Assembly (NCBI RefSeq): GCF_002216145.1
Contig: NZ_CP022278.1
Location: 310,001-374,000, forward strand
Direction: 5' to 3'
Source of the DNA: Neisseria chenwenguii
GTDB lineage: Bacteria; Pseudomonadota; Gammaproteobacteria; Burkholderiales; Neisseriaceae
DNA: 64,000 nucleotides
In this document: piece by piece, positions 35,786-41,848 of the stretch
Layout of the letters: each line of letters begins with the position of its first letter
Position numbering within the stretch: the first letter of the stretch is position 1
Translations under genes and position numbers: made by a program
Notes under the pieces: generated by a model
Told to the model about the DNA's origin: nothing
The model's input: only the letters and a program-made list of their open reading frames with translations
Databases searched by the model: none

Positions 35786-36757
35786 ATGAACAAACTCGTC
35801 CCCCTCGCCCTTGCCGCCGCCGTTGCCGCGGGCGGTTACTATATCTACACCCGACAGCACACCGACGCCCTGCCAGCCGGTATCGCCCAATCCAACGGCC
35901 GCTTGGAGCTGAACCGTTTTGATATCGCCAGCCTCTATCCCGGCCGCGTCGAAGAAATGCTTGTGGACGAAGGCAGCGAAGTGGCTGCGGGCGACGTGTT
36001 GGCGAAACTCTCGTCCGACACCAGCAGCAGCCGCGTCGAAGCCGCCAAAGCGCAGAAACAGCGGGCGGTCGAGAGCGCGACGCGGGCGGCGGCGGAGATG
36101 AAGGCTTTGGCACAGCGGCAGAAAGTGGCGCAGATGGAGTGGGACAACGCGCTGGAACTCAAACGCGACGATTTGGTGTCCGATTCCGAAGTGCGCCGCC
36201 GCAAAGCCGAACGCGACAGCGCCGCCGCGCAGGTTGAAGCCGCCCGCGCCGCGCAGGCCGAAGCGCAGGCCGCGGTCAACGCCGCGCAGGCGCAGATTAA
36301 CGAAGCGGCCTCCGCCGACGGCGACATGACCATCCGCAGCCCGAAAGCGGGGCGGGTGGAATACAAAATCGCCGAAACCGGCAGCGTGATTGCCGCCGGC
36401 AGCAAAGTCGTCAGCCTGCTCGACCCCGCCGACGTTTCGATGAACATTTTCCTGCCCAACGGTCAGGCAGGCCGTCTGAAAACCGGCGACGACGCACGCA
36501 TCCGCCTCGACAGCCTCAACGCCGTGTTCCCCGCCAAAATCAGCTTCATCGCCACCGACGCGCAGTTCACGCCCAAAGCGGTGGAAACCGCCGACGAACG
36601 CGCCAAGCTGATGTTTAAAGTGAAACTGAAAATCCCCGCCGACACCGCCCTCAAATACAACCGCCTGCTCAAAGGCGGCATGACGGGCAACGGGTTTGTG
36701 AAAACCGATGCGAAAGCGGCATGGCCGGCGGATTTGGCGGTGAAACTGCCGAAGTGA
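35786..36757 (+). CDS. HlyD/YhiI-like periplasmic adaptor (membrane fusion protein)
   Basis: The 323-residue protein has an N-terminal membrane anchor (LVPLALAAAVAAGGYYIYT), a split lipoyl domain (NGRLELNRFDIASLYPGRVEEMLVDEGSEVAAGDVLAKL and MTIRSPKAGRVEYKIAETGSVIAAGSKVVSLLDP) and a long alanine-rich coiled coil between them (about 80-185). A beta-barrel part ends with LLKGGMTGNGFV. It links inner-membrane ABC permeases to an outer-membrane channel. With rbbA- and yhhJ-like genes downstream it corresponds to E. coli YhiI. About 1 kb of other DNA now separates it from rbbA. Confidence 0.9.
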   Translation: MNKLVPLALAAAVAAGGYYIYTRQHTDALPAGIAQSNGRLELNRFDIASLYPGRVEEMLVDEGSEVAAGDVLAKLSSDTSSSRVEAAKAQKQRAVESATRAAAEMKALAQRQKVAQMEWDNALELKRDDLVSDSEVRRRKAERDSAAAQVEAARAAQAEAQAAVNAAQAQINEAASADGDMTIRSPKAGRVEYKIAETGSVIAAGSKVVSLLDPADVSMNIFLPNGQAGRLKTGDDARIRLDSLNAVFPAKISFIATDAQFTPKAVETADERAKLMFKVKLKIPADTALKYNRLLKGGMTGNGFVKTDAKAAWPADLAVKLPK

Positions 36758-36762
36758 GTTTG

Positions 36763-36862
36763 CTGGCATAGGTCGGGCATTCGTGCCCGACGCTACTAGA
36801 ATCTTCCGCCATGTTTGGAAATATGCGGGAAATGTCGGGAAAAAGTGTCCGACCTGCGGCTG
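36763..36862. repeat. GTCGG(N)CCGAC palindromes
   Basis: GTCGGGCATTCGTGCCCGAC (36768-36787) and GTCGGGAAAAAGTGTCCGAC about 70 bases later are imperfect palindromes. Relatives built on GTCGGAT and ATCCGAC occur at 41871-41940 and 62611-62680. They appear to be a dispersed intergenic repeat. An isolated DUS follows near 36940. Confidence 0.5.
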
Positions 36863-36987
36863 AAGTGGGTTTGGTGGCAATGTGTTCATAAAATAAAACG
36901 GCAGGCCGAAGCCTACCGTTTGCACCGCCTAAAAAGTTTCAGACGGCCTGTATAAAAAAACAGAAATACTTGCTTTAAGGTTTAGCG

Positions 36988-37143
36988 TCAGCGGAACAGG
37001 CGGATAAGGATAATCGTAATCAGCATACTGACCGCCATCTGCCAATAAAACATATCCTTCCCTGGAAACAGATGTTTCATTGCCATTGCTACTGCAGCGG
37101 CGGCTACCGTTACACTTAATAGTAACACAAACCCTTTTTTCAT
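36988..37143 (-). CDS. 51-residue membrane peptide, candidate bacteriocin immunity protein
   Basis: The frame starts at 37143, one base after the stop of the double-glycine peptide gene (TAGTATG), so the two are coupled. The product MKKGFVLLLSVTVAAAAVAM continues AMKHLFPGKDMFYWQMAVSM and LITIILIRLFR. It has two hydrophobic helices joined by a short charged loop, with positive ends. Small two-helix membrane peptides directly downstream of class II bacteriocin genes are commonly their immunity proteins. No sequence family is recognised, so the role is inferred from position and topology. The region is AT-rich compared with its neighbours. Confidence 0.6.
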   Translation of the reverse strand: MKKGFVLLLSVTVAAAAVAMAMKHLFPGKDMFYWQMAVSMLITIILIRLFR

Positions 37144-37144
37144 A

Positions 37145-37417
37145 CTAGAAATACGGGCTACCTACTGCAGTAGCAACAGCACTAGTAGTAAAAGCTCCAC
37201 CTGCAGTCATCGCCGCCGAGCGGATACCGTTAACCGGACTGAATGCCCCACTTAAGCCGCCAATCGCCACAGCACCTAAAAATTTGTTTGGGTCTTTGCC
37301 TCCACCTGCAAGATAGCCATACCCTGCACCGTATGCACCGGCTATCCCGCCTACTGCATTGGCAACCCAGCCGCCAGAAACTTGATTCATTTCATTTTCA
37401 TCTAAAATAATATACAT
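37145..37417 (-). CDS. Double-glycine-leader bacteriocin-like peptide
   Basis: The 90-residue product opens with MYIILDENEMNQVSGG, which fits the classical leader cleaved by C39 peptidase ABC exporters: L at -12, E at -8, M at -7, V at -4, G at -2 and -1. The predicted 74-residue mature part begins WVANAVGGIAGAYGAGYGYL. It is rich in glycine and alanine, has many GxxxG spacings, contains no cysteine and ends AVATAVGSPYF. These are features of class II pore-forming bacteriocins/microcins. An AAAGGA site lies about 20 bases upstream, nearer an out-of-frame ATG. No C39 transporter is in the window. It sits in an AT-rich patch between the adaptor and RbbA genes, on the opposite strand. Confidence 0.75.
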   Translation of the reverse strand: MYIILDENEMNQVSGGWVANAVGGIAGAYGAGYGYLAGGGKDPNKFLGAVAIGGLSGAFSPVNGIRSAAMTAGGAFTTSAVATAVGSPYF

Positions 37418-37755
37418 AATAAATATACATAATATATTCCTTTGGGGTAATTAACTAGGAGTACAAGGAATCTGCATTATTTTTGCGGAGTTTCTTGTCT
37501 AATTAGTGACAGCCGGGAAAGGAAAAAGTTTAAAATTATTTAGAGTTATTTTTTTAATTTGTTGATTATATTGATAACATTATTTTCATTTTCTATTATT
37601 TGATAATTTGCTTTTGTCACTCTGTTTAGCTGTGTGGCTTAGAATGAAAATCCAACATGTTCTAAACAGCTATTTCGTCAAAATTGCATCCCAAGTTACA
37701 ATCCTTTCAGACGGCCTGAAATGCCGTCTGAAAAACCAAATCCAAGAACCCAACC
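37418..37755. other. AT-rich intergenic patch upstream of the bacteriocin gene
   Basis: 338 bases, markedly poorer in G and C than either side, with long T and A runs (for example near 37545-37600). It must hold the leftward promoter of the bacteriocin unit. No hexamer pair stands out. Facing DUS copies at about 37705-37735 lie just ahead of rbbA. A 73-codon rightward frame here (from 37608) has no gene-like features. Confidence 0.5.
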
Positions 37756-40731
37756 ATGAATACCGAGTTAACCCCCGCCGTTTCCCTCTCCGCCCTCTCC
37801 CACCGCTACGGCAAGACTCTTGCGCTTGACGATGTGTCGCTGGACATTCCGAAAGGCGCGACGGTCGGTTTGATCGGGCCGGACGGGGTGGGCAAATCGA
37901 CGCTGCTCTCGCTGGTTGCCGGCGCGCGCGAGATTCAGACAGGCACGGTAAACGTGTTCGGCGGCGACATGGCGGGAAAAGCCGTACGGCAGGAAATGTC
38001 GCACCGCATCGCCTTTATGCCGCAGGGTTTGGGACGTAATCTTTATCCCACTTTGTCGGTGTACGAAAACATCGATTTTCATGCGCGGCTGTTTGGGATG
38101 GCGGCAAACGAGCGTCGTGCGCGGATTCAACGGCTGCTGGACGCGACGGGTTTGGCGCCGTTTCCCGACCGCGCGGCGGGCAAACTTTCAGGCGGCATGA
38201 AGCAGAAGGTCAGCCTCTGCTGCGCGCTGGTGCATTCGCCCGACCTGCTGATTTTGGACGAACCGACCACCGGCGTCGATCCGCTCTCGCGCCGCCAGTT
38301 TTGGGCGCTGGTTGACGAATTGCGCGCGGAACACGCGGGGATGACGGTGATTGTGGCGACCGCCTACATCGAAGAGGCCGAGCGTTTCGAGCACCTGCTG
38401 GCGATGGATGCGGGCAGACTGCTGGTCAGCCGCCCCACCCGCGAAGTGATGGCGCAATACGGTACGAAAACGCTGGAGGAAGCCTACATCGCCATGCTGC
38501 CGTCTGAAAAACAGACCGGCGCGGGCGGGCTGGAAATCACGCCGTTCGTCCCCGATCCCGACGAGCCGCCGGCAATGGAGGCGCACGGCCTGACCAAGCG
38601 TTTCGGCGACTTTACCGCGGTCGATCATGTCAGCTTCACCATCGGGAAAGGCGAAATTTTCGGTTTTCTCGGTTCCAACGGCTGCGGCAAATCGACCACC
38701 ATGAAAATGCTCACCGGCCTGATCCGCGCAACCGAGGGCGATGCCAAGCTGTTGGGCGAACCGATTGCCGCCGACAATATGCAGACGCGGCTGCGCGTGG
38801 GCTATATGTCGCAGGCTTTTTCGCTGTATGAAGAGCTGACCGCTAGGCAAAACCTTGATTTACATGCCAAACTCTACCAAATGGGCAGCAGGGGCAAAGC
38901 CGCCGTCAACGATGCGCTCGCGCAGTTCCAGCTCGCCGACGTCGCCGACACCGCCCCCGCCGCGCTGCCACTTGGCATCCGCCAGCGCCTCCAACTCGCC
39001 GCCGCCTGCCTGCACAAACCCGAAGTGCTCATCCTCGACGAACCGACCTCCGGCGTCGACCCCGCCGCGCGCGATATGTTTTGGCGCCATCTGCTGAAAC
39101 TCTCGCGCGAAGACAAAATCACCATTTTCGTGTCCACCCATTTTATGAACGAGGCCGAACGCTGCGACCGCATTTCCTTTATGCACAAAGGCCGCGTGCT
39201 CGCCGTCGGCACCCCGCCGCAACTCACCGCCGCGCAAAATGCGCCGGATTTGGAAGAGGCGTTTGTGGCGTATCTGGTTGAGGCGGAGGGAGCGGAGAAA
39301 GATGGGCAAACCGCGCCGACGGGGAATCAGGCCGAACCACGCAGGCCGTCTGAAAATGAATGCCTGTCTGAAAAATCCATCCCTGTTGAAAATGAAAATG
39401 CCGGGCTGAAGCCCGGCCTACACGGTTCCGAACAAACCGCACAGCCAAGTAGGCCAGGCTTCAGCCCGGCATCCGTCCAAGCGATGCCGTCTGAAAAATG
39501 CTTGTCTGAAAACGCCGATACGGATCCATCAAATCCTCCACCCCAACCCACACCCCGTCTTTCAGACGGCCCAGACCCTGACCCAACTTCCACTCCCCCG
39601 CGCCGCCCTTCCCTTTCCACCGTTTGGGCGTTCGCGCGGAGGGAGACGAAAGAGTTGTTGCGCGACAAAATCCGGCTGTTTTTCGCCATCTGCGGACCGC
39701 TGATTATGATGTCGGCGATTGCGTGGGGGATTTCGTTTGATGTGCAGAACTTGAGATTTTCGGTGTTCGACCGCGATCAGACGGTGGCGAGCCGGCAGTT
39801 GGCGGAATATTTTTCGGGTTCGCGCTACTTTTTGCAGCAACCTGAAATCCATGACGAAAGCCGGATTGATACGGTGTTGAAAAGTTCGCAGGCGGTGTTG
39901 GTGATGGACATTCCGGCGGGCTTCGGGCGCGCGCTGATGCGCGGTGAAACGCCCGAAGTGAGTTTTTACATCGACGGGGCGCTGCCGTTTAATGCTTCCA
40001 ATATTCAGGGCTATATCGGCGGTATCATGACGATGTATGCGCAGGACGGAATCCGCGAAACGGGGCTGCCGGTGTCGTTGCAGGCGCCGGCGCAGGTGGT
40101 GCCGCGTTTCCGCTACAATCAGGATTTCAACAGCATCAATGCGATTGCGCCGGGCGTGATGATGCTGGTATTGGTGATGATTCCGGCGATGATGAGCGCC
40201 ATCGGGGTAGTGCGCGAGAAGGAAACGGGATCGATTACGAATCTTTATATTTCGCCCGCGGGCGTGCCGCAGTATTTAATCGGCAAGCAGCTTCCTTATA
40301 TTGCGGTGGGGATGTTGAACTTCCTCTCGCTGGCGCTGGTGATGAATTTGTGGTTCGGCGTGCATCTCAAGGGCTCGTTTTTCGGGCTGGCATTCGGTAC
40401 GCTGCTGATGGTAACGGCCTCAACCGCGATGGGCTTGCTGATTTCGTCGTTTGTGCGCTCGCAGCTTGCGGCGATTTTCGTAGCCGCCATCGGCACGCTG
40501 CTGCCGGCCATCAATTATTCGGGCTTCCTCTACCCGCTTTCCACCATGAGCGGCAGCGCCTATGTATTCGGCAAGATTTTCCCTGCTTCGTGGTACTTGA
40601 ACGTGAGCATAGGTTCGTTTACCAAAGGGCTGAACGCAGCCGATCTGCGGCAGGAATACGCCGTGATTGCCGTGTTTGCGCTGGCGTGTATCACGGCATC
40701 CTGCCTCTTGCTGAAAAAACAGGAGCGGTAA
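37756..40731 (+). CDS. rbbA: RbbA-like fusion: two ABC ATPase domains plus ABC-2 permease
   Basis: The 991-residue protein has the domain order of E. coli RbbA. ATPase 1 (about 8-235) has GPDGVGKSTLL Walker A, LSGGMKQKVSL signature and LLILDEPTTGVDP Walker B. ATPase 2 (about 272-505) has GSNGCGKSTTM and VLILDEPTSGVDP, but its signature reads LPLGIRQRLQL instead of LSGGxxQR. An ABC-2 permease domain (about 620-985) follows. RbbA was described as a ribosome-associated ATPase, but its neighbours make an export role likely. The linker (about 515-615) is low-complexity and built from uptake sequences and an inverted repeat. It lies one base before the YhhJ-like permease gene. Confidence 0.9.
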   Translation: MNTELTPAVSLSALSHRYGKTLALDDVSLDIPKGATVGLIGPDGVGKSTLLSLVAGAREIQTGTVNVFGGDMAGKAVRQEMSHRIAFMPQGLGRNLYPTLSVYENIDFHARLFGMAANERRARIQRLLDATGLAPFPDRAAGKLSGGMKQKVSLCCALVHSPDLLILDEPTTGVDPLSRRQFWALVDELRAEHAGMTVIVATAYIEEAERFEHLLAMDAGRLLVSRPTREVMAQYGTKTLEEAYIAMLPSEKQTGAGGLEITPFVPDPDEPPAMEAHGLTKRFGDFTAVDHVSFTIGKGEIFGFLGSNGCGKSTTMKMLTGLIRATEGDAKLLGEPIAADNMQTRLRVGYMSQAFSLYEELTARQNLDLHAKLYQMGSRGKAAVNDALAQFQLADVADTAPAALPLGIRQRLQLAAACLHKPEVLILDEPTSGVDPAARDMFWRHLLKLSREDKITIFVSTHFMNEAERCDRISFMHKGRVLAVGTPPQLTAAQNAPDLEEAFVAYLVEAEGAEKDGQTAPTGNQAEPRRPSENECLSEKSIPVENENAGLKPGLHGSEQTAQPSRPGFSPASVQAMPSEKCLSENADTDPSNPPPQPTPRLSDGPDPDPTSTPPRRPSLSTVWAFARRETKELLRDKIRLFFAICGPLIMMSAIAWGISFDVQNLRFSVFDRDQTVASRQLAEYFSGSRYFLQQPEIHDESRIDTVLKSSQAVLVMDIPAGFGRALMRGETPEVSFYIDGALPFNASNIQGYIGGIMTMYAQDGIRETGLPVSLQAPAQVVPRFRYNQDFNSINAIAPGVMMLVLVMIPAMMSAIGVVREKETGSITNLYISPAGVPQYLIGKQLPYIAVGMLNFLSLALVMNLWFGVHLKGSFFGLAFGTLLMVTASTAMGLLISSFVRSQLAAIFVAAIGTLLPAINYSGFLYPLSTMSGSAYVFGKIFPASWYLNVSIGSFTKGLNAADLRQEYAVIAVFALACITASCLLLKKQER
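39343..39575 (+). repeat. Uptake-sequence-rich insert inside the RbbA linker
   Basis: Within the coding frame lie AGGCCGTCTGAA (39343), TGCCTGTCTGAA (39361), ATGCCGTCTGAA (39484), a partial CTTGTCTGAA (39501) and a reverse copy TTTCAGACGGCC (about 39560). Between them, GCCGGGCTGAAGCCCGGC and GTAGGC...GCTTCAGCCCGGC form an inverted repeat (39400-39470). The encoded stretch is low-complexity and separates ATPase 2 from the permease. Confidence 0.8.
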
Positions 40732-40732
40732 A

Positions 40733-41848
40733 ATGCGCGTTATCCGCAATATTTGGACATTGGTGCTGAAAGAGTTCCGCAGCCTGTTCGGAGATCCCGT
40801 ATTGATGCTGCTGATTGCCTTTATGTTTACCGGCTCGGTTATCAGCGTGGCCAGAGGCATCAACACTGACGTGAAAAACGCCACCGTCGGCATCATCGAC
40901 CTTGACCGCTCGCCCCTTTCGATGCGCATCCGCGACGCCGTACAGCCGCCGTTTTTCAAACTGCCCGAAGACGTCAAGCATGAAAACGCCGACGAAGCGA
41001 TGGACAAGGGCAACTACATCTTCATCCTCGACATCCCGCCCAACTTCCAGCGCGACCTTGCCGCCGGCCGCAGCCCGCAAATCCAGCTACTCATCGACGC
41101 CACCACCATGACGCAGGCAGGCGTCGGCTCGTCCTACCTCACCCGGATTATCAATCAGGAAGTCAACGGCTTTCTCGGCCAGACTGCCGCCGCACCGCTC
41201 AAACCCGTGATCCGCAAGCGTTTCAACCCCAACGGCGAAAGCGCGTGGTTTATGCCCGTTTCCCAAGTCGGCAACAACGCCAGCCTGATTCTGCTCGTTT
41301 TGGTCGGCGCCGCCGTTATCCGCGAACGCGAACGCGGCACCATCGAGCATCTCTTGGTGATGCCGGTAAACGCTTTCGAACTGATGATGTCGAAAATCCT
41401 CGCCAACGGCCTCGTCGTCCTCGCCGCCGCCACCGCCTCGCAATGGTTTGTCGTCCACCTCTACCTCGGCGTACCGCTGCAAGGCGCGCTCTGGCTCTAC
41501 GCCGTAGGCATGATGCTGTTTCTCTTCACCATCGCCTCGCTCGGCGTCATGCTCGCCACCGTCGCCCCCAGCATGGCTCAGTTCGGCCTACTGATGCTGC
41601 CTGTTCACATCATTATGCTGATGTTTTCCGGCTCCGCCTCCCCGCGCACCAACATGCCCGAAGCCGCGCAAATCATCAGCGAATACTGGCCGCTGACCCA
41701 GTTTATGAAACTCTCCCAAGACGTGATGTTCCGCGGCGCGGGCTTCGGCATCGTCTGGCCGCAGATGGCCGCCATGTCCGCCCTCGGCGCCTGTTTCCTT
41801 GGATTCGCGCTGTTGAGGTTTCGCACGATGTTGGAGAAGCAGGGGTAG
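40733..41848 (+). CDS. YhhJ-like ABC-2 permease
   Basis: The 371-residue permease of the ABC-2 (YhhJ/YbhR) type starts one base after the rbbA stop, with GGAGCGG in the rbbA end as its ribosome-binding site. It has an N-terminal helix (PVLMLLIAFMFTGSVISV), a large periplasmic loop (about 45-170, ATVGIIDLDRSPLSMRIRDAVQPPF) and five to six helices in the C-terminal half, with the ABC-2 signature AAVIRERERGTIEHLLVMPVNAFELMMSKI. It should pair with the RbbA permease half in one exporter. Substrate unknown. Confidence 0.92.
   Translation: MRVIRNIWTLVLKEFRSLFGDPVLMLLIAFMFTGSVISVARGINTDVKNATVGIIDLDRSPLSMRIRDAVQPPFFKLPEDVKHENADEAMDKGNYIFILDIPPNFQRDLAAGRSPQIQLLIDATTMTQAGVGSSYLTRIINQEVNGFLGQTAAAPLKPVIRKRFNPNGESAWFMPVSQVGNNASLILLVLVGAAVIRERERGTIEHLLVMPVNAFELMMSKILANGLVVLAAATASQWFVVHLYLGVPLQGALWLYAVGMMLFLFTIASLGVMLATVAPSMAQFGLLMLPVHIIMLMFSGSASPRTNMPEAAQIISEYWPLTQFMKLSQDVMFRGAGFGIVWPQMAAMSALGACFLGFALLRFRTMLEKQG

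Follow-up and report, generated by a model that had tools for sequence, protein, structure and literature searches.

The question raised by this locus is what two small, coupled genes encode, and how the product of the first would leave the cell. The genes lie between an adaptor gene and an RbbA-like gene of Neisseria chenwenguii, on the opposite strand to both, within a window of 64,000 nucleotides (the whole stretch of DNA analysed here, C1:310001-374000 of a single-contig, 2.50-Mb genome). Family searches identify the flanking genes as a HlyD/RND-type adaptor (35786..36757, + strand), which is context only and outside the module, an RbbA-like ABC protein without a C39 domain (37756..40731, + strand; NF033858, 1369.7 bits against a cut-off of 1050), and, again as context, an ABC-2 type permease (40733..41848, + strand). 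An earlier note on this DNA described a 90-residue double-glycine (GG) peptide followed, at TAGTATG, by a 51-residue frame with two membrane helices, and both frames were recovered as described.

The first gene (37145..37417, − strand) is an open reading frame for a peptide precursor of 90 residues. It has homologues, and its dN/dS between relatives is 0.06-0.19 (8 of 10 pairs; dS was saturated in the remaining pairs). The N-terminus, MYIILDENEMNQVSGG, has L at −12, E at −8, M at −7, V at −4 and G at −2 and −1, just as the earlier note had read it, and is matched by the NCBIfam bacteriocin leader model TIGR01847 at 16.2 bits, above the cut-off of 15.7. This match, together with the alignment of relatives, delimits a leader of 16 residues ending in GG (37370..37417, − strand). 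Cleavage after the GG would leave a mature core of 74 residues (37148..37369, − strand), which on reading the sequence is rich in Gly and Ala and contains no Cys. The alignment also shows that close homologues keep the GG leader, the loss of which in all homologues would have spoken against the original description. The other models matched below their cut-offs, these being TIGR03949 for the lactobin A/cerein 7B class IIb family (19.5 bits, cut-off 21.5) and Bacteriocin_IIc (PF10439; 9.9 bits, gathering cut-off 27.1), and a Pfam search of the peptide found no family above cut-off. Searches of PADLOC and of PDB sequences gave no useful match, and searches of plasmid and phage collections gave no match at all, so that no carrier element was identified.

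It is worth adding that a 13-bp tandem repeat (37409..37434, − strand) lies across the start of the peptide gene and separates its ATG from an AGGA about 20 nt away, an arrangement absent from four intact relatives. Because of this repeat and of the distant AGGA, expression or translation of the window peptide may be weak or variable.

The second gene (36988..37143, − strand) has its ATG one base past the peptide stop (TAG T ATG). Its 51-residue product has two hydrophobic 19-residue stretches by the Kyte-Doolittle rule, at residues 4-22 and 32-50. A terminator-like hairpin of 11 pairs with a T-rich tail lies 3' of the pair (36896..36921, − strand), and is one of three such sites in the region, against a mean of 1.2 in shuffles. 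All five intact close copies of the peptide gene (the window, L006, L007, L008 and L010) are followed within 19 nt by a two-helix frame of 51-58 residues carrying the motif FP[GDN][KR]xMFYW. In a sixth copy, L009, most of the peptide core has been lost and the partner frame is retained. The partner gene has dN/dS values of 0.16-0.32 (7 of 15 pairs; dS was saturated in the others). A protein search with the 51-residue sequence found only itself. A profile of seven partners matched 7 of 83 Neisseriaceae genomes, six of which (G000, G020, G021, G042, G043 and G450) hold the core or a remnant of it, while the seventh, G427, is a borderline match (E=0.0095). The two peptides do travel together, a point that the earlier note had left for checking; it had also allowed that the second frame might be unconserved or untranslated, whereas that frame proved to be conserved, to occur together with the peptide and to evolve as coding sequence does. 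These observations indicate that core and partner belong together, as expected for a toxin and its immunity protein, and the pairing makes the 51-residue protein a candidate cognate membrane immunity protein. The same profile also matched what appears to be a frameshifted partner relic elsewhere in the same genome (L154, G000:C1:2062744-2062863), beside which no peptide gene was seen.

Measured in 300-base windows, the cassette has a GC content of 0.32-0.47, compared with about 0.6 in its surroundings, and is thus the AT-rich, antisense block that had been described. It does lie between the adaptor and RbbA-like genes, as had been noted. This splitting of the efflux cluster is nevertheless weak evidence of insertion, because genomes of the genus differ in the length of the gap between the two genes, which runs from about 60 bp (G042 and G043) through 373 bp (G029) and 839 bp (G003) to about 10 kb (G040) or more; RbbA was not reached in 7 of the 20 neighbourhoods examined. 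The gap itself (36758-37755 in the window) may be an insertion hot spot. Of the 46 genomes of the genus, 5 contain the peptide family by single-sequence search, and a scan of genome contigs found two loci, both in N. weixii. Three of the five intact copies adjoin the adaptor/RbbA operon, at two different junctions, and L008 is located elsewhere than L009 and L010, which lie beside a frame (seen in L009-L011) that we take to be TrpS-like. L009, L011 and L012 are decayed relatives in other genomes. Since the insertion places differ among relatives, the cassette has been mobile. The patchy distribution, the different insertion places and the low GC content support horizontal spread of the pair, in line with the acquisition proposed at the outset. 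Uptake sequences near the cassette might be taken as marks of insertion, but this evidence was rejected, there being 95 of the two main 12-mers in the window, or about one per 670 bp.

How would such a peptide be exported? The earlier note supposed either an exporter elsewhere or an orphan unit. A genome-wide C39 search found one place, a 717-residue frame with C39, ABC membrane and ATPase domains, located 0.76 Mb from the pair on the same chromosome; the first supposition is borne out, and the second falls, since the genome does encode an ABC-C39 exporter. Near this gene are a 436-residue HlyD-type adaptor, GG-leader peptides and a 447-residue TolC-like protein. From the GG leader of the window peptide we infer that this exporter handles it. 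Export via the neighbouring RbbA-like cluster was also considered, and was rejected because that cluster has no C39 domain.

The genome is rich in such leaders. At E≤0.07 the TIGR01847-type leader model has 12 matches here, none in 36 of the 46 genomes of the genus searched, and 5 in the next highest genome; among 14 named control genomes, Lactococcus lactis alone matched. With a leader pattern plus start codon, at least 28 GG-leader places were found in the stretches examined, three of them identical peptides. Only 5 of the 28, including the window pair and a paralogue pair at 0.936 Mb with a partner of 69 residues, have a small frame with two hydrophobic stretches in the next 220 nt, which counts against the reading as bacteriocin and immunity protein. 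Across the 46 genomes, a leader match is found in 10 and an ABC-type C39 in 13, with both in 7 (one-sided Fisher p=0.0025). Against the bacteriocin reading with ABC-C39 export stand N. weixii (G042), which has two intact GG copies and no ABC-C39 match, and likewise G025 and G029, which have GG matches without an ABC-C39 match. In N. weixii (L099, L059; C1 around 2326600) there is only a stand-alone C39, together with a NapF-like gene, and the Sec-type peptide nearby looks broken.

A wider comparison shows the same core behind a different front end. A profile search, which scored the 8000 candidates sharing most words, found 98 homologues of the peptide. Together with five loci these give 103 rows, of which 17 have a GG box, 77 a box ending in G-A (70), G-E (6) or G-T (1), mostly as EG-A, and 9 none that is recognisable. 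The non-GG box lies more than 30 residues into the protein in 75 of 77 rows. T at −4 is present in 77 of 77 and M at −7 in 76 of 77, counts that are partly selected for, since the scoring favours such boxes and required G at −2 and five of six features. Those non-GG relatives that are complete at the N-terminus start, by reading, with a Sec-like signal plus acidic spacer. We base the Sec assignment on this reading of the sequences; a rough Sec-signal rule was not specific, as 56 of the 75 late-box proteins satisfy it and so do 8 of the 15 short GG forms. In the alignment the 74-residue core is common to both types, and the Sec-type box and the GG leader match up column by column. The two types are bridged by P0009, which aligns from its first residue with the Neisseria Sec-type precursor L120 (43% over 142 residues), and whose box and core are 69% identical (59/86) to the window peptide. 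In a tree of 64 of 99 sequences over 75 columns (13 truncated or frameshifted sequences were excluded by name; the others left out had a weak box, lacked the core signature or were removed on identity), P0009 adjoins, with weak support (89/64), the eight-row GG clade that contains the window peptide. The tree is poorly resolved and needs five changes of leader label; a single origin is still compatible with it. A further short match to the core profile, the sixth (L122), covers 25 positions and has no visible peptide frame.

The partner can be followed across the same change. G450, which belongs to another genus of the family, encodes a two-helix protein of 59 residues after a Sec-type core. 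Pairwise BLASTP between this protein and the 51-residue partner gave no alignment, and the link between the two emerged only from profile comparison: against the profile of six GG-type partners it scores 34.0, with a probability of 92.5%, where nine other two-helix partners, from GG- or Sec-type peptides, score 9.5-14.7 and 100 shuffles reach a maximum of 14.4. The two-helix partner, as identified by this comparison, is present on both sides of the leader change.

The leader type can be set beside the type of C39 gene. When the loci of the Sec-type relatives were widened (L123-L127), all five contained a stand-alone C39 gene and a gene for a NapF-like barrel; of the eight Sec-type peptides in them, five are followed by a two-helix frame and three are not. 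No stand-alone C39 or NapF-like gene was found in the checked stretches of the GG-type loci of the window family, nor does the window contain a match to either. A neighbourhood scan covered 25 of 31 C39 places plus two loci from G450 and G318 (left out were three G019 places, one of which, of 463 residues, is of unsure type, and G028:C62, G015:C138 and G045). GG peptides were found in 10 of 14 neighbourhoods of ABC-type C39 genes and Sec-type peptides in none, whereas stand-alone C39 genes had Sec-type peptides in 9 of 13 and GG peptides in none, although five of these 13 loci had originally been found through their peptides. Eighteen control neighbourhoods contained neither. When the comparison is restricted to the 18 loci L128-L145, GG peptides are found at 7 of 11 ABC-type loci, with no Sec-type peptide, and Sec-type peptides at 4 of 7 stand-alone loci, with no GG peptide; both leader patterns used in the scan were written after earlier loci had been seen. 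The four ABC-C39 neighbourhoods of the 14 that have no GG peptide count against the reading of leader and exporter as matched. To judge by these neighbourhoods, leader type and C39 type correspond.

The balance of this evidence leans towards one toxin/immunity module that uses two secretion systems by exchanging its front end. A bare GG leader would take the peptide out in a single step through a type I exporter of the C39-ABC kind. With a Sec signal and a related box (L/M at −12, E/Q at −8, M at −7, T at −4, E/Q at −3, G at −2, A at −1) in its place, the peptide would go to the periplasm, for cutting by a stand-alone C39 peptidase and exit through a NapF/FapF-like barrel. The leader would then predict the machine, and the immunity protein would travel with the core. 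No description of the pair, or of such a leader exchange, was seen among the open-licence papers found by search, as judged by titles and the starts of abstracts. Some relatives already carry the NCBI name 'bacteriocin' or 'class IIb bacteriocin', and for this reason the kind is counted as known, and the novelty lies in one module using two routes.

For the window pair itself, we regard it as probable that it encodes a class II-type bacteriocin (with a GG leader and no modification genes adjacent) and its cognate membrane immunity protein, exported by the distant ABC-C39 transporter and with an exchangeable front end. The GG leader of the precursor would be recognised by the genome's one C39-peptidase ABC exporter, acting with the adaptor and the TolC-like protein, and type I secretion would then cut the precursor after the GG and take the peptide out of the cell in a single step. 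The glycine-rich core would then most likely insert into the membrane of related cells, while in the producer the 51-residue protein, in the inner membrane, would block its own peptide, as the pairing suggests. The exporter could be shared in trans among the many GG-leader peptides of the genome. Elsewhere the module appears to have changed its secretion route by means of a new front end, with a Sec-like signal, a GG-like box, a stand-alone C39 and a NapF/FapF-like barrel. Antibacterial activity, cleavage and export are all predicted here from sequence comparison.

A close parallel, by description, is the McbABCI system of Moraxella catarrhalis, which has a GG-leader peptide, a small gene directly downstream and export by a C39-type ABC protein with an adaptor. 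There the gene directly 3' of the peptide, McbI, gave immunity, and McbC and McbI were reported to have no significant similarity to other proteins, according to that report (PMC2761928). It differs in that its exporter is in the same operon, where here it is 0.76 Mb away, and in that killing and immunity were demonstrated there and are inferred here. The likeness to lactobin A/cerein 7B is limited to a weak match of the leader and first core residues, below the TIGR03949 cut-off as given above, and class IIb implies two peptides where one is seen. For the meningocin of N. meningitidis, it is reported that the secretion genes NMB0097/NMB0098 are needed for growth inhibition and that the bacteriocin gene was not identified (PMC9263626); these are comparable to the exporter here, by description, as two secretion genes.

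An alternative is that the peptide acts on the producer's own stationary-phase population, as a self-lysis peptide like the gonococcal Naps, with the two-helix protein as a modulator or holin-like partner. The nap report (PMC11798529) describes peptides with GG motifs, encoded with a stand-alone C39 peptidase (NapP) and a FapF homologue (NapF); these peptides promote autolysis and were inactive as antimicrobials in the assays published there. The loci at which Sec-type relatives of the window core are found resemble this island. Autolysis without inhibition of other bacteria would argue against a simple killing role, just as the immunity seen with McbC and McbI would argue for one. The window pair, however, has neither NapP nor NapF beside it, its genome has no stand-alone C39 match, and by description the Nap peptides and their reported effect differ from what is seen here. 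The partner is specific to the core family and persists where the peptide has decayed (L009), as expected of immunity, and self-lysis is to that extent an unlikely account.

It is similarly improbable that the locus is a decaying, unexpressed relic of a bacteriocin locus. The awkward start region with its 13-bp repeat, the decayed relatives L009, L011 and L012 and the frameshifted partner relic would fit such decay, but both frames and the exporter are intact, and sequence change between species is under constraint. A signalling peptide, or a secreted amyloid-like structural subunit, with the same leader and with the two-helix protein as its receptor or chaperone, is still harder to accept. 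GG leaders are also used by signal peptides, but the cassette contains no two-component or regulator gene, the core has by eye no amyloid-type repeat, and core and partner are linked one to one. In favour of an amyloid, FapF-like barrels export amyloid subunits in the Fap system, where (PMC5557850) a periplasmic C39 peptidase (FapD) and a barrel (FapF) resemble the Sec-like signal, stand-alone C39 and NapF/FapF-like barrel of the Sec-type relatives; the window peptide, unlike the Fap subunits, has no Sec signal. A bacteriocin/immunity module whose front end, and hence export route, was exchanged is most likely.

If this is true, the NapP/NapF-type machine would be a general route for bacteriocin export in Neisseriaceae and beyond, and the correspondence between leader type and C39 type would assign many small Neisseria peptides to a secretion route. 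The comparison also points to a role in bacteriocin-like modules for a machine known from the autolysis peptides of gonococci and the amyloid of Pseudomonas. As a case to test, the window pair is concrete: it has a candidate exporter, and its genome combines at least 28 GG places with one C39 exporter. Other members of this set have arrangements of their own. One region (L102, C1:526000-542000) contains twelve GG-leader frames, ten of them in tandem at 528.4-531.1 kb and two near 539.3 kb, and in this set one 40-residue GG peptide is present three times in identical form. Two further loci (L062 and L069, at C1 around 1172800 and 1136200) encode related glycine-rich GG peptides of 85 residues, followed by two-helix frames of 101 and 78 residues, respectively, that are also related to each other, making a second bacteriocin-like family with the same layout as the window pair.
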